Of a DNA stretch of 61,448 bases, positions 55,230-61,349 are shown piece after piece. The DNA comes from Verrucomicrobiota bacterium. GTDB lineage: Bacteria > Auribacterota > JABMQX01 > JAFGEW01. Location of the stretch: assembly GCA_016931415.1 (NCBI GenBank), contig JAFGEW010000050.1, forward strand, positions 1 through 61,448, read 5' to 3'. The position numbers and the translations under genes were made by a program. The notes under the pieces are model-generated. The model was not told the origin of the DNA and ran no database searches. It saw only the letters and a program-made list of their open reading frames with translations. Every line of letters starts with the position of its first letter. The first letter of the stretch is position 1.

Positions 55230-56060
55230 ATGGCTCTTGACCGCGTAACAACCGATACGCTCGGGCGCATGAAGCAGGCCGGCGACCCGATCGTGGCGCT
55301 CACCGCGTATGACTGGCCCACGGCCGAGGTCGAGCAGGCCGCTGGCGTGGATATCATCCTCGTCGGGGACTCGATGGGCACGGTCGTGTTCGGCCACGAG
55401 ACGACGCTCAAGATGACCATGGACCTCATGGTCGCACACTGTGCCGCTGTCGCGCGGGCCGAAGGACGCGCGCTGCTCGTCGGCGACATGCCGTTTCTCT
55501 CGACGACGGTCAGTGTCGAGGACGCCGTCCGCAACGCCGGGCGCTTCATTGCCGAGGGCAACATGCACGCCGTCAAAGTCGAGGGCGGGGTAGGCATGGA
55601 GGCGACAATCGCCGCCATCGTCCGCGCCGGCATCCCTGTCATGGGCCACGTCGGTTACACGCCCCAGCAGGCGCTCAAGTTCGGCCGGAAGGTGGTGCGC
55701 GGGCGAGGGGAGGACGCTGCAGCCCAGATCATGCGCGACGCCCAAGCTGTCGAACGCGCCGGCGCGTTCGCCATCGTGCTTGAGTGCGTCCCGCTCGAGT
55801 TGGCCAAACGCGTCACCGAATCGGTCGGTATTCCGACCATCGGCATCGGCTCCGGCCCGCACTGCGACGGCCAGATCCTCGTCGTGCACGACATGCTCGG
55901 CCTCTTCGACCGCAAGCAGATGAAGCACGTCAAGCGCTACGCCGACCTCAAGGCGCAGATGCGCGCCGCCGTCGAGCAATACGCCAAGGAAGTCCGCACG
56001 CACGCCTATCCCGACGACGCCCATGCCTTCCACGACGAGGGCCCGGGGGAGAGACAGTAA
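55230..56060 (+). CDS. panB: 3-methyl-2-oxobutanoate hydroxymethyltransferase
   Basis: A 276-residue protein with PIVALTAYDWPTAEVE, ILVGDSMGTVVFGHE, the Mg-binding Asp in LLVGDMPFLS, KVEGG and GHVGYTPQ. It makes ketopantoate, using methylenetetrahydrofolate, which gives folK a loose link. C-terminal tail slightly extended. Confidence 0.96.
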   Translation: MALDRVTTDTLGRMKQAGDPIVALTAYDWPTAEVEQAAGVDIILVGDSMGTVVFGHETTLKMTMDLMVAHCAAVARAEGRALLVGDMPFLSTTVSVEDAVRNAGRFIAEGNMHAVKVEGGVGMEATIAAIVRAGIPVMGHVGYTPQQALKFGRKVVRGRGEDAAAQIMRDAQAVERAGAFAIVLECVPLELAKRVTESVGIPTIGIGSGPHCDGQILVVHDMLGLFDRKQMKHVKRYADLKAQMRAAVEQYAKEVRTHAYPDDAHAFHDEGPGERQ

Positions 56061-56427
56061 GAATTCAGCCACGGAGGCGCGAGAGGATGCTCGATCGCAG
56101 AGATGTCTTCTTCGTGAACTCCTGTCCTCCGTGGTGAAGTGAATGCCCGTGCAATGTCCCCCAGAGAGGTAATGCCACCGGCTTGAGCCGGTGGTTGGTG
56201 AGGTTTCATCAGGATCCTGAAGCGCGCTTGAGCGTGCTTCTCGACATGTGGCTTGAGCCGTGTCTATGGGGCGGGAGTGAGGCTGCATAGATGCACCTGT
56301 CGAGAAGCCGGCTGAAGCCGGCTCTGTTCGGCGAAGGACTGAACGCTAACCACCGGCTGAAGCCGGTGGCATTACCTACCTGCAGTAGGTACGGCATCAA
56401 ACAAGTGTAATAGACTGGGTGCAACGG
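56061..56427. repeat. composite long inverted repeat between panB and panC
   Basis: The left arm at about 56167-56198 contains AGGTAATGCCACCGGC and a palindrome (56175-56194). The right arm at about 56347-56377 is its near-exact reverse complement, ending GGTGGCATTACCT. Inside lie GAAGCGCGCTTGAGCG, CTTCTCGAC and the facing GTCGAGAAGCCGGC. The layout is palindromes nested in a 210-bp inverted repeat, as in a MITE-like element. No gene is supported. Confidence 0.75.
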
Positions 56428-57285
56428 ATGTCAAAGATGTTGCGCATCATCGAGGACCCGGACGCGATGCAGCAGTGGGCGCTCGCCGAGCACCGCGGCG
56501 GCAAGTCGATTGGCTTTGTCCCCACGATGGGCGCCCTGCACGAAGGGCACCTGAGCCTTGTGCGCCGCTGCCGCGTCGAGAACGACTGGTGCGTCGTCTC
56601 CATTTTTGTCAATCCGCTCCAATTCGGCCCGAACGAAGATCTCGACACGTACCCGCGCGGCCTCGAGCGCGACCAAGTCCTGCTCCAGAAGGAGAACGCC
56701 GACGTCGTGTTCCTTCCGACGCCGCAGACGATGTACCCGCCCGGCTTCTCGATGCGCGTTGAAGAGAAGATGCTCTCCAAAGTACTCTGCGGCGCGTCCC
56801 GTCCCGGCCATTTCGCCGGTGTGACCACTGTGGTGCTCAAGCTCCTCAACCTTGTCCAGCCGGTGCGCGCCTATTTCGGCCAGAAAGACGCCCAGCAGGC
56901 CCGCATCATCCAGCAGATGGTGCGAGACCTTGCCGTCCCCGTCGAGACCGTTGTCTTGCCCATCGTGCGCGAGCCCGACGGGCTCGCCATGAGCAGCCGG
57001 AACGCCTACCTCACGCCCGAGCAGCGGGCCGAGGCGCCTGTGCTGTTCCAGGCCCTGGAATGGGCACGAAAGGCCGTTGACACCGGCGAGCGTTCCGCGG
57101 ATACTTTGTGTTTGGGCATCCGCGAACGGATCAGCGCCACGTCCGCACGCATTGACTACGTCTCCGTCGTTGATTTCGAGACCCTGCGCGACGTGCCCGT
57201 CGTGCGCGGCGCCGTCCTGATTGCCGTGGCGGTGTTCTTCGGAACGACCCGCCTGATTGACAACGTGATCGTTCAGAGTGACTGA
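56428..57285 (+). CDS. panC: pantothenate synthetase
   Basis: A 285-residue protein. The start may be the ATG at 56428 or at 56437. It has FVPTMGALHEGHLSLVRR with the HxGH motif, SIFVNPLQFGPNEDL, YFGQKDAQQARII and REPDGLAMSSRN. It joins pantoate and beta-alanine with ATP. Confidence 0.96.
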   Translation: MSKMLRIIEDPDAMQQWALAEHRGGKSIGFVPTMGALHEGHLSLVRRCRVENDWCVVSIFVNPLQFGPNEDLDTYPRGLERDQVLLQKENADVVFLPTPQTMYPPGFSMRVEEKMLSKVLCGASRPGHFAGVTTVVLKLLNLVQPVRAYFGQKDAQQARIIQQMVRDLAVPVETVVLPIVREPDGLAMSSRNAYLTPEQRAEAPVLFQALEWARKAVDTGERSADTLCLGIRERISATSARIDYVSVVDFETLRDVPVVRGAVLIAVAVFFGTTRLIDNVIVQSD

Positions 57286-57300
57286 GGAGCCATCGCCTAC

Positions 57301-57669
57301 ATGCTGCGCACCATCTGCAAATCCAAGCTCCACGGGGCCACCGTTACCCAGACGGAGTTGTCATACGAGGGGAGCATCACGCTGGATACCGATCTCATGG
57401 AGGCGGCCGACATGCTGCCCTGGGAGCGCGTCCAGATCGTCAACCTCAACAACGGCGCGCGCATCGAGACCTTCATCATCCCGGGCGAAGCGGGCTCCGG
57501 CACCGTGTGCCTCAATGGCCCGGCCGCGCGCTGCGCCGTCGTGGGCGACATCGTGCACGTGATTTCGTATGCCGAGATGACCGACGAGGAGTCCGCCGGC
57601 CATCACCCCGTCGTTGTCAACCTGGACGAGAACAACCGCATCCGCCGCAAGCACCTCATGTCGACTTGA
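57301..57669 (+). CDS. panD: aspartate 1-decarboxylase
   Basis: A 122-residue pyruvoyl-enzyme precursor. Self-cleavage occurs at the Gly-Ser bond in LSYEGSITLD (about residues 21-30), with MLRTICKSKLHGATVT before and LNGPAARCAVVGD after. It makes beta-alanine for PanC. GAGGAG lies upstream. panE is not in the window. Confidence 0.96.
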   Translation: MLRTICKSKLHGATVTQTELSYEGSITLDTDLMEAADMLPWERVQIVNLNNGARIETFIIPGEAGSGTVCLNGPAARCAVVGDIVHVISYAEMTDEESAGHHPVVVNLDENNRIRRKHLMST

Positions 57670-57733
57670 TCGGGGCGCTTGCCGCGCCGTTTTCTGTCGC
57701 AATCCGCTCACGCAGCATGGTATCTCTGTGGCG

Positions 57734-59116
57734 ATGTACTGGGCCAACTTCCTCCATATCTATCAGCCGCCGACGCAGTCGCCCGAGATCGTCGAGCGGG
57801 TCGCCGCGGAATCGTACCGTACGCTCATCGCCGTGCTCGAACGCCACCCCGAGGCGAAGGTCACGCTCAACGTCACCGCTTGCCTGACCGAGCAGCTCGA
57901 CGCCTGCGGCCTCGGCGACGTCATTACCGGCATCCGCGCGCTTGCCGAGCGCGGCCAGATCGAGCTCACCGCGAGCGCCAAATACCATCCGATCCTCCCG
58001 CTCATTCCCGAGGATGAGGTTCGGCGGCAGATCGAGCTCAATACCGAGACGAATCGTGCCTTCTTCGGCGACGTCTACCAGCCGCGCGGCTTCTTCCCCC
58101 CCGAAATGGCGATCAGCCAGAGCGTGCTCGAGATCGTCGGCGAGATGGGCTACACGTGGGTCATCGCCGACGAGATCGCGCGCGACGGCACGATCGGCCG
58201 CTCCGTTGACAATGCGTGTAATGAGGTCGCCGGCCTGCCCGGGCTTTGCGTCTTCTTTCGTGAACGCATGCTGAGCCACAGCCTCGAGATGCGCCGGATC
58301 ACCAGCGGCGCCCAGTTCCAGCGGGCGATCGAGCCATGGCTCGCTCAGGACGGGTACCTGCTCACCGGCACCGACGGCGAGTTCTACGGCCATCACATCA
58401 AGGGCCTCGAGACAGTGCTGTCGGTCGCCTACAAGTGCGGCACGCCGCCGACGTGCACGGTCTCCGAGCTGCTCGATCGCTTCCCCGAGCGGCGCCCGGC
58501 CGACCCGCTTCCCTCGTCATGGACCACGTGGCCCGACGAGATCGTGCAGGGCAATGCCTATCCGCAGTGGGACCATCCGAAGCACGCTGTCCACAAGCTC
58601 CAGTGGCGACTCACCAACGCCGTGGTTCAGCTTGTCCACTCGAGCACCAGCCGCGACGGCTGCGACAACGCCCGCCGCCTTCTCGATGAGGGCCTTCACT
58701 CGTGCCAGTACTTTTGGGCGAGCTGCCGGCTCTCGTGGAGCACCGACATGATCCTGCGCGGCGCCGACCGTCTGCTTGCCGCCGCCGAGGCCCTCGACGC
58801 CGCCGCGACACACAAGCGCGTTATCGACATCCAGCGCCTCCATCGCGAGCTGCACTCGCTCGTCTGGGAGTGGCAGAACGCCGGCAGGCCGCGCACCGTC
58901 CGCCGTGCATACAAGGCCGCCCACGCCGACATGTTCGGTGACGATCAGGACGATGACGGGGAATCAGGGGACGAGGCTGAGCCCGACGCGGAGGGACCCG
59001 GAGAGCGGGACTGCGCCGACAGCAAGCCGAATCCTGTTGGGGCGGACGATCTGCGGACGAACGAACCTGCGGTCGGGGGGGATGATCTGCCCGAGAGCGA
59101 CGGGGAGCGCGAGTAG
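57734..59116 (+). CDS. glycoside hydrolase family 57 protein
   Basis: A 460-residue protein from MYWANFLHIYQPPTQ, the GH57 first motif (H-x-x-QPP). FFPPEMAIS carries the usual Glu region and LTGTDGEFYGHHIKGL the conserved Asp motif. GH57 enzymes act on alpha-glucans: amylase, branching enzyme or 4-alpha-glucanotransferase. After about residue 400 an acidic, low-complexity tail of 60 residues follows (DDQDDDGESGDEAEPDAEG). It has no signal peptide, so it is probably cytoplasmic and concerned with glycogen. Its place after panD, 64 bases on, looks accidental or regulatory. Confidence 0.9.
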   Translation: MYWANFLHIYQPPTQSPEIVERVAAESYRTLIAVLERHPEAKVTLNVTACLTEQLDACGLGDVITGIRALAERGQIELTASAKYHPILPLIPEDEVRRQIELNTETNRAFFGDVYQPRGFFPPEMAISQSVLEIVGEMGYTWVIADEIARDGTIGRSVDNACNEVAGLPGLCVFFRERMLSHSLEMRRITSGAQFQRAIEPWLAQDGYLLTGTDGEFYGHHIKGLETVLSVAYKCGTPPTCTVSELLDRFPERRPADPLPSSWTTWPDEIVQGNAYPQWDHPKHAVHKLQWRLTNAVVQLVHSSTSRDGCDNARRLLDEGLHSCQYFWASCRLSWSTDMILRGADRLLAAAEALDAAATHKRVIDIQRLHRELHSLVWEWQNAGRPRTVRRAYKAAHADMFGDDQDDDGESGDEAEPDAEGPGERDCADSKPNPVGADDLRTNEPAVGGDDLPESDGERE

Positions 59117-59207: not shown

Positions 59208-59879
59208 CTAGCCCCTCTTCCTCAACCGCAGCAGCAAGGCGCCAAGCCCGGAGACTGCAAGCAGCATGGTCGCCGGCTCCGGAACGCACGTGTACTCATA
59301 CGTGATCGTGGCGTAGCCGCAGGAGCCGAAGTTCGACACCTTCAGGGTCGAGTCGGTGACCCCGGAGATGCTAAACCCGCCCTGGCCAAGGATCCCGATG
59401 TCGATCGTCCCTAGGCCGATGAACGGCGCCAAGCCCGACGTCAGCGTGCTCGTGGCTGTGTCGATGTCAGACACCGTGCCGAAGTCGTAGAAGTCAAGCC
59501 CCGAGTCCGGGACGCCGTCTGTAGCGGTTACGCTGACCGGGCCCTCGAGTGCCGACATGATAGCCACCACCGAAAGCCCTCCGCCACTGGCCTGTACCCA
59601 ACCAGTCAGGTTCAGCGTCATACTCCCGCCAATCTCCGAGTCATTCTCGCCCGTCACATCAGCATGTTCCTCGGCACACAGGTAGATGGTCACCTTCTCG
59701 AGCGTGCACAATCCCCCGTTGTCGTCGAACTGCTGGAATGAGAGCGTCTGGCTTCCTGGAGACAGCGGAAAATCGAACGGCAGCGTCTCCGAGCTGGTCG
59801 TTGCGGATGCCCTCGGAGCCAGAGCCAGCACACAGGCCAGGCAGATGACACCAGCGAGCACCCAGCGAAGTCTCACCAT
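59208..59879 (-). CDS. PEP-CTERM secreted protein, choice-of-anchor E-like
   Basis: A 223-residue protein from MVRLRWVLAG, after a GGAAAGGGGG site. It has a signal peptide cleaved near ASA (residue 24). The body is beta-rich and reads like the choice-of-anchor E domain (LSFQQFDDNGGLCTLEKVTI). The sorting tail is VPEPATMLLAVSGLGALLL followed by Arg/Lys residues, the canonical PEP-CTERM. It would be processed by an exosortase (not in the window) and retained at the surface or in an exopolysaccharide matrix. Confidence 0.9.
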   Translation of the reverse strand: MVRLRWVLAGVICLACVLALAPRASATTSSETLPFDFPLSPGSQTLSFQQFDDNGGLCTLEKVTIYLCAEEHADVTGENDSEIGGSMTLNLTGWVQASGGGLSVVAIMSALEGPVSVTATDGVPDSGLDFYDFGTVSDIDTATSTLTSGLAPFIGLGTIDIGILGQGGFSISGVTDSTLKVSNFGSCGYATITYEYTCVPEPATMLLAVSGLGALLLRLRKRG

Positions 59880-59960
59880 AAGAATCCCCCTTTCCATGAT
59901 TCTTGGACACGTATGTGATTCCAGAAGAACGGCAGGGGGATACCCCCCTATCTCGCGGTG

Positions 59961-59989
59961 AGTGTACCACACATCGTGTGGCCACACAA
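59961..59989 (-). promoter_or_regulatory. possible promoter of the first PEP-CTERM gene
   Basis: On the minus strand TTGTGT (59989-59984) is followed after 17 bases by TACACT (59966-59961). Both are partial matches to sigma-70 boxes (3 and 4 of 6). Confidence 0.4.
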
Positions 59990-60064
59990 GGACTTTTCTG
60001 GGCAAAACTGCAAGAAATGCTCACCTGAGCGGATGGGCCGGCATTCAGATCGCATTCGGGCAAG

Positions 60065-60090
60065 AAAAGGCCCTCCCAAGCGGGAGGGCC
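60065..60090 (-). terminator. rho-independent terminator of the second PEP-CTERM gene
   Basis: Minus-strand GGCCCTCCC and GGGAGGGCC form a perfect 9-bp stem (60069-60090) with a 4-base loop, then TTTT and C. It lies 130 bases after the stop at 60220. Confidence 0.85.
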
Positions 60091-60219: not shown

Positions 60220-61224
60220 CTAGCCGCGTCTGCGCAGGCGGACACCCAGCGCCGCCAGCCCAAGACCCATCAACACCATCGTGGCCGGCTCGGGAATGCC
60301 TGTGTCCGGAAGCTGGATGTAGACGGCGTCCAGCCCGACGTCCTTCCCGAAGCCGTCCTCGATGCCTTGCCAGGCAAGCTCCGTCTGAACCAGCGCTCCA
60401 GGGCCATCGCCAAACGCATAGCCAAAGATCAGCAGATCCTGGTCCTTGAACGCGATCAGCGGATCGAGATCATCCTGGATACCATCAACTTGACGTACAA
60501 CACCATCAACCTCGGTCGAGAAGAGCACTTTGAGCATGACCGAGTCCGGCCCTTCGGCCTCCATCCAGATGTGCAGCCCATCCAAGCCGACCTCGGAGCC
60601 GAACACGGACGTCATGTCAAGCCAGCCGACCAGGCTGGTGCCGTCGGTGACCAGGATGTCCCCGCTCGTGAACGTGGTCGGATTCCCGTCGATCAGAGCC
60701 GTGCCGCCCACCTCCGTCGAGAAGGTCAGAAGCCACTTGCCGTCATGGTCGTCGTAGAACCAGCATGTGGCGTCGAAGCCGAGGTCCGCTCCGCCAAACG
60801 CGACTTTGGAGTCCCACGCGCGTGAGAGCAGACCCAGCACTGGATCGTAGACCAGAAGGTCCTCGTCCGTGTAGTGGGTGCCCTCGAAGTCGAAATCCAC
60901 CTCGGTCGAGAAGTAGTACAACGGCCCCACAGGCCCGTTGGTGGGCACTGCCCCATTGACCGGCATCCGGATGTCGAACGCATCCAAGCCGGTCTCGATG
61001 CCCAACACGTCGCCCGGATCGAAGAACACGTCATTGGTGTCCCAAGACCACGGGAAGCCCGGTGGGTACAACGAGAGAACCTCCCGGTCCACGAACGTCC
61101 CCGCGCCGTCGAGGCCGTCGTCAACCTCGGTCGAGATCAGCGCCAGGACCGGATCCTGAGCCAGTGCCGCTGCCCCGACCAAGCACAGCGACACCGCAGT
61201 GACAAGAAACACAGTTAGCCGCAT
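60220..61224 (-). CDS. PEP-CTERM protein with four FSTEVD repeats
   Basis: A 334-residue protein. The signal peptide MRLTVFLVTAVSLCLVGAAA is followed by four units of about 60-75 residues. Each opens with [IF]STEV (near residues 31, 105, 168 and 233) and carries an acidic middle (DLLVYDP, DILVTDG, DLLIFGY) and a GLDA/GFDA/GLDG/GLDA segment. The tail IPEPATMVLMGLGLAALGVR is a PEP-CTERM. The repeat suggests a beta-propeller or beta-solenoid-like secreted scaffold. Function unknown. Confidence 0.85.
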   Translation of the reverse strand: MRLTVFLVTAVSLCLVGAAALAQDPVLALISTEVDDGLDGAGTFVDREVLSLYPPGFPWSWDTNDVFFDPGDVLGIETGLDAFDIRMPVNGAVPTNGPVGPLYYFSTEVDFDFEGTHYTDEDLLVYDPVLGLLSRAWDSKVAFGGADLGFDATCWFYDDHDGKWLLTFSTEVGGTALIDGNPTTFTSGDILVTDGTSLVGWLDMTSVFGSEVGLDGLHIWMEAEGPDSVMLKVLFSTEVDGVVRQVDGIQDDLDPLIAFKDQDLLIFGYAFGDGPGALVQTELAWQGIEDGFGKDVGLDAVYIQLPDTGIPEPATMVLMGLGLAALGVRLRRRG

Positions 61225-61320
61225 ACCTCACCCCTCCAATTGGCACCCGAATAGAGAACTTCGCGGAGGCTCGTTCCGGTGTGAGACGGAGACTAACCCC
61301 CGATACCCTAAGTGCTTTAT

Positions 61321-61349
61321 AGAATATCAAAGTCAGGACCACAAGTCAA
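61321..61349 (-). promoter_or_regulatory. sigma-70-type promoter of the second PEP-CTERM gene
   Basis: Minus-strand TTGACT (61349-61344), a 17-base spacer and TATTCT (61326-61321) match 5 of 6 bases each. Transcription would begin near 61314, giving a leader of about 90 bases. The region is AT-rich compared with its surroundings. Confidence 0.8.

Follow-up and report, generated by a model that had tools for sequence, protein, structure and literature searches.

Two kinds of described system come closest to the protein analysed here: the proteins that exosortases sort and the haemopexin-type propellers. Export through Sec and sorting by an exosortase are established biology, and haemopexin is a Pfam family of four-bladed β-propellers, the animal domains of which have a disulphide between their ends. 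PEP-CTERM proteins are described as numerous and mostly unlike known proteins, and their systems as consisting mostly of single-gene operons whose products carry signal peptides and show little homology (Haft et al. 2006, PMC1569441). Because these proteins are mostly unlike known ones, their role outside the cell is largely open. Overexpression of one of them, PepA, is reported to have restored floc formation to an rpoN1 mutant, with soluble polymer going down and bound polymer going up (PMC9850573). A plant haemopexin-type propeller has four antiparallel strands in each blade and short helices that link the blades; the inner strand starts with Asp in three blades and Asn in the fourth, and the narrow end of the channel is acidic (PMC6934871).

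The gene studied here lies on a contig of 61,448 bases, the whole of which was analysed (the window), and encodes a protein of four repeat units followed by a PEP-CTERM tail. The four-unit protein is probably a small propeller. Our preferred reading, held with moderate confidence, is that an exosortase sorts the protein to the surface or matrix and that its units build a four-bladed β-propeller closed by a C-terminal LDA strand. Each unit would supply four β-strands, namely a STEV strand, a D-[LI]-L strand, a strand rich in W and L, and a G-L-D-A strand. In three blades the inner strand would be the G-L-D-A strand of the preceding unit, and the last, C-terminal G-L-D-A strand would complete the N-terminal blade. 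The body is unnamed, and the type of surface protein is familiar.

The protein resembles those sorted by exosortases (PMC1569441; PepA, PMC9850573) in having a signal peptide recognised by eye, the tail, an exosortase in the genome and what is apparently a single-gene unit. It differs from the PEP-CTERM subfamilies of NCBIfam in that the four-unit body matches none of them, all of their matches falling below their cut-offs; the best, to PepA, reaches 28.3 bits against a cut-off of 80, and these matches begin at residue 303 at the earliest, save that to NF038129, which begins at 275. With haemopexin-type propellers it shares the number of units, a predicted blade of four strands and a short helix, and an Asp near the proposed start of the inner strand in every unit. 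Unlike them, it has no Pfam sequence match to the family, its ring is closed by proposal, and its mature part has one Cys, which makes an end-to-end disulphide impossible. We regard the likeness to haemopexin as one of working rather than of membership, because no haemopexin profile matches.

Repeats and sorting signals

The coordinates, strand and frame originally given for the gene are correct (Table 1), and its description as a secreted PEP-CTERM protein with four repeats is supported by a Pfam tail match above cut-off and four STEV units; the putative signal peptide is clear by eye. The tail scores 28.3 bits with PF07589 (cut-off 20.7) in Pfam and 20.6 bits with TIGR02595 (cut-off 16) in NCBIfam. 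The source genome, an assembly of 4.06 Mb in 134 contigs that is 98.9% complete with 4.48% contamination, encodes one exosortase match, to PF09721 on contig C30 (113 bits against a cut-off of 25.7), and 33 of the 38 PEP-CTERM sites listed in it are above cut-off. Together, gene layout, tail counts and exosortase fit the general description of a PEP-CTERM system (PMC1569441).

Table 1. Features of the four-unit gene and its product, in window coordinates
Feature	Position	Strand	Details
Coding sequence	60220..61224	minus	334 aa + stop, ATG start
Signal peptide	61159..61224	minus	residues 1-22, by eye: charged start, hydrophobic core, A-x-A
Unit 1	60928..61152	minus	residues 25-99, STEV at 31
Unit 2	60739..60927	minus	residues 100-162, STEV at 106
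Unit 3	60538..60738	minus	residues 163-229, STEV at 169
Unit 4	60298..60537	minus	residues 230-309, STEV at 236; terminal LDA strand proposed to close ring
Modelled blade	60595..60789	minus	residues 146-210: A (LDA-type), B (STEV), C (DILV), D (LVGWLD), short helix
PEP-CTERM sorting signal	60229..60297	minus	residues 310-332
Sigma-70-like promoter	61321..61349	minus	TTGACT-17-TATTCT, extended -10; consensus match only
Ribosome-binding site	61231..61237	minus	GGAGGGG, by eye, 6 nt before ATG
Intrinsic-terminator-like hairpin	60069..60090	minus	3' of gene

Because these signals are present and the enzyme is encoded in the genome, the signal peptide (residues 2-20 of which are helical in an otherwise poor full-length model) would export the chain through Sec, and the genome's exosortase would recognise the tail and then cut. 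The body is acidic, with a pI of 4.05, and its mature part has 53 acidic residues against 9 basic ones, along with 8 Trp and 1 Cys. As the putative anchored product it would stay on the cell surface or in the exopolysaccharide matrix, where it may bind cations, glycan or other matrix proteins.

The original prediction gave the repeat as FSTEVD. All four units open with STEV, but the flanking residues are less constant: F precedes it in three (unit 1 has ISTEV) and D follows it in three (unit 3 has G). The D-[LI]-L-[VI] motif likewise holds in three units but not in unit 1, which has EVLS, while GxD[AG] holds in all four, as G[LF]D[AG]. The units range from 63 to 80 aa in length. Ten columns of the four-unit alignment are invariant (S, T, E, V, G, L, G, G, D, G); when the units were shuffled, 200 sets averaged 2.42 such columns and never exceeded 7. 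For each of the six unit pairs, between 0 and 14 of 1000 shuffles scored as high in local alignment as the real pair. The earlier observation of a four-repeat protein is confirmed, and the repeats go beyond chance. Between aligned pairs of units, identity is 25-37% at the amino-acid level and 40-56% at the nucleotide level, and the same codon is used at 43-65% of the residues that a pair has in common. Such low identity and codon sharing suggest that the duplications are old, and selection would have maintained the motif.

Relatives and possible kin

Pfam and NCBIfam reach their cut-offs on the tail only, in agreement with the earlier view that the repeat belongs to no named family. For the whole protein Pfam returned PEP-CTERM alone, with no haemopexin or other propeller profile, and for the mature part and three single blades it returned no match at E ≤ 10 with the HMMER filters on. 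No close relatives were found in plasmids (tblastn, E ≤ 1), and peptide patterns drew 49 stretches from genome_contigs and 2 from viral_contigs, none of which was confirmed as one. In the protein's own genome the six other matches at E ≤ 10 are all to the tail (query residues 290-333). Two of 58 other genomes (G014 and G021) matched at E ≤ 0.01, and both were rejected as tail matches (query 265-333 and 298-332) without STEV units. A profile of the STEV unit found this gene only, both in its own genome at E ≤ 10 and, at E ≤ 0.01, in a set of 240 genomes to which its own belongs. These negatives are weak, the unit being short and diverged; at the available sensitivity, the four-unit protein is an orphan. 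Among the papers listed by literature searches, none is on this repeat, as judged by title or start of abstract, and neither a STEV or FSTEVD repeat nor a PEP-CTERM propeller is named in the library searched.

The wider interest of the analysis lies in unnamed four-unit proteins found along the way. Their starting point was a typed consensus of an unnamed motif, 'FS...AGDI...LGL..DDLDAL'. With this consensus, four of 384 genomes gave a match at E ≤ 0.01, including two from the window's phylum; G094 was dropped from the four, its match (L048, E 0.0027) reading as an unrelated lipase-like protein. A profile search matched five of the 384 genomes and then three of eight in the phylum of G134, and in the phylum of G279 two of seven genomes have FS...LDAL matches. 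Seven of the proteins are complete (L045, L046, L047, L049, L058, L059 and L070), two of them in the window's phylum, and the domain of L049 is encoded identically in a Candidatus Eisenbacteria record (L050). By eye, all seven have four units each, which run from near the signal peptide to an LDA-type strand and are followed by a tail; some FS-type units open with TYS, FT, FG or LS. The contig of a further protein, L069 from G394, stops after the third unit, and this protein entered the analysis with three units.

The tails of the FS...LDAL proteins look PEP-CTERM-like or T9SS-like by eye, and PEP-CTERM-like in four of the seven complete ones (L046, L047, L059 and L070). For the three that were scanned (L059, L058 and L047), NCBIfam gave nothing at E ≤ 1 and Pfam nothing that passed its cut-off. 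Against the PDB by sequence, the family profile gave E values of at least 0.56, and one member gave 0.46. No further members were found in plasmids; viral_contigs gave 3 and 17 stretches, none confirmed, and genome_contigs gave 17, among which only the query's own record was confirmed. Two candidates were set aside: the fragments L052, L053 and L054 on contig C7 of G386, a decayed copy in short frames, one with an internal stop, and a match to a merged profile in G304, which proved to be a frame of 62 aa within a transporter gene.

Could the STEV protein be a diverged member of this scattered family? We treat this reading, which is compatible with the propeller explanation, as a tentative one and lean against it. 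Both have a signal peptide by eye, four units that run from an FS-type to an LDA-type strand in the same register, and a tail, and the order of their motifs is identical; the FS...LDAL proteins differ in that LGL and DDLDAL form separate blocks and STEV is absent. When scored with the family unit profile, the STEV protein was beaten by 18 of 2000 column-permuted copies and by no control frame out of 23; on a block-chain score it was equalled or exceeded by 3 of 500 column-permuted copies and by no simple shuffle out of 300. The controls were pulled by a motif filter; several are partial duplicates, and one (L008) is from another genome. Against kinship, hhalign comparison of the unit profiles gave scores as high for 23 of 300 permuted profiles in local mode and 198 of 300 in global mode, and the remaining hhalign comparisons were not significant. 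The family profile finds nothing in the source genome at E ≤ 10, and a merged profile found no bridging sequence in 386 genomes. In the block test, moreover, one of the 23 control frames, the longer L042, scored slightly higher (67.0 against 65.7), the best path ran off the expected register, and the comparison was picked after both sequences had been seen. Kinship is not established: two permutation tests are suggestive, whereas the profile-profile and genome searches are not.

If the link were true, one unnamed fold would cover proteins of several lineages that are missing from family libraries. We think it unlikely that the STEV and FS...LDAL proteins are two branches of an undescribed bacterial superfamily of four-bladed propellers, sharing closure by a C-terminal strand and a four-aspartate cation site in the channel and displayed outside the cell through sorting systems that differ among them, some using PEP-CTERM and others a T9SS-like tail.

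Fold of the unit and closure of the ring

The case for a closed propeller begins with the register of the units. Recut into the pieces 76-145, 146-210, 211-294 and 25-75, the chain aligns on its G-L-D-A, STEV, D-L-L and W strands; only the N-terminal piece, 25-75, is without the G-L-D-A first strand, and a spare G-L-D-A strand stands at the C terminus (295-309). A strand missing at one end and to spare at the other is what one would expect of a propeller that its last strand closes. This circularly closed register is absent from the original prediction, as are the similar four-unit proteins in other genomes.

Structure prediction adds one blade. The full-length model, made from one sequence, is unusable (pLDDT 34, pTM 0.21), and ring closure is not seen in it. 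AlphaFold2 run on the four-row alignment gave a model of residues 146-210 (pLDDT 70.6, pTM 0.47) with strands at positions 5-13, 18-25, 44-48 and 53-58, a helix at 59-63 and a small hairpin (29-33, 36-40). We read this model as a list of strands in order, and the pairing of the strands lies outside that reading. The structural equivalence of the four units that the original prediction implied is supported in part: the one-unit model is coherent and the other three copies align, but the full-length model offers nothing usable. All four pieces show a raised β propensity where the strands lie, though only in the modelled one is the rise clear, the fraction of circular shifts that reach it being 0.016 there and 0.130, 0.127 and 0.075 in the others.

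Searches with the blade model point in more than one direction. The top 19 of the best 50 rows of a VIA search have Z values of 4.1-5.0 and rmsd of 1.6-2.7 over 42-46 residues, where Z of 5 or less is below the tool's safe level and carries its warning of what is possibly just a common arrangement. We take all 19 to be β-propeller chains: 16 from EED/PRC2, one Apc1, one NirN and one quinohaemoprotein dehydrogenase. Lower rows of the best 50 include non-propellers (PupR, an amine oxidase and spindlin); no haemopexin chain is among the 50, which excludes nothing. Foldseek against the PDB returned 222 matches up to E 10; the best E was 0.46, and none came within 0.001. Among the 50 best of these, the first nine are to beta-galactosidase, AraC-type sensor domains and a phage structure, so that propellers are not favoured, and the tenth is a designed protein, presumably a propeller. 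Against BFVD the best E was 0.11. By sequence, the whole protein reached a best E of 1.4 in the PDB; the unit profile reached 0.017 with the FaeG fimbrial adhesin, a match that we take as chance and in which no single stretch passes alone.

These results leave room for the same exosortase-anchored protein with its units unclosed, as a row of small β domains or a continuous β stack that would serve as a spacer or stalk. We consider such an arrangement somewhat unlikely. The repeats and tail are established and ring closure, given the unusable full-length model, is not; Foldseek's top matches to the unit are non-propellers, and a stack would tolerate the varied lengths of the units. Closure, however, predicts exactly four units with a STEV strand first and a G-L-D-A strand last, and we take the top VIA rows to be propeller blades. 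A matrix filler without a defined fold, that is, a secreted acidic chain under little constraint, in which duplication left repeats as a by-product, would suit the low pI, the excess of acidic residues and the poor full-length model, but is very improbable given ten invariant positions retained while the remainder diverged, the eight Trp of the mature part and the coherent model of the unit.

In the four-bladed propeller that we prefer, the four G[LF]D[AG] aspartates would encircle the central channel, a possible seat for a cation, and a matrix glycan or protein would bind at the faces and rim. A repeat unit with a testable fold gives one PEP-CTERM protein a concrete form and a putative site for binding.

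Gene layout and neighbourhood

The original prediction also called the promoter strong and the protein possibly abundant. The analysis gives this no support beyond a single sigma-70-like match (9 of 12 consensus positions, with TG before the -10 element) in a region where shuffled sequence gives 0.5 ± 0.7 such sites. From its position the site is a plausible promoter for the four-unit gene, and the number of sites is no proof. Terminator-like hairpins are similarly close to expectation, with two in the region against 1.9 ± 1.5 by chance. Because neither count is clearly above that of shuffled sequence, it is the position of promoter and hairpin that suggests a single-gene unit.

On its 5' side the four-unit gene is bordered by the end of the contig. 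Next to it on the minus strand, a gene at 59208-60005 encodes a protein with a choice-of-anchor E domain, which scores 54.2 bits (cut-off 23.8); the protein's PEP-CTERM tail scores 19.1 bits in the Pfam scan of the window, below the cut-off of 20.7, and 23.5 bits in the genome search, above it. Further along, on the plus strand at 55230-59116, panB, panC and panD stand consecutively and are followed by a glycoside hydrolase family 57 gene, the open frame of which overlaps the end of panD.
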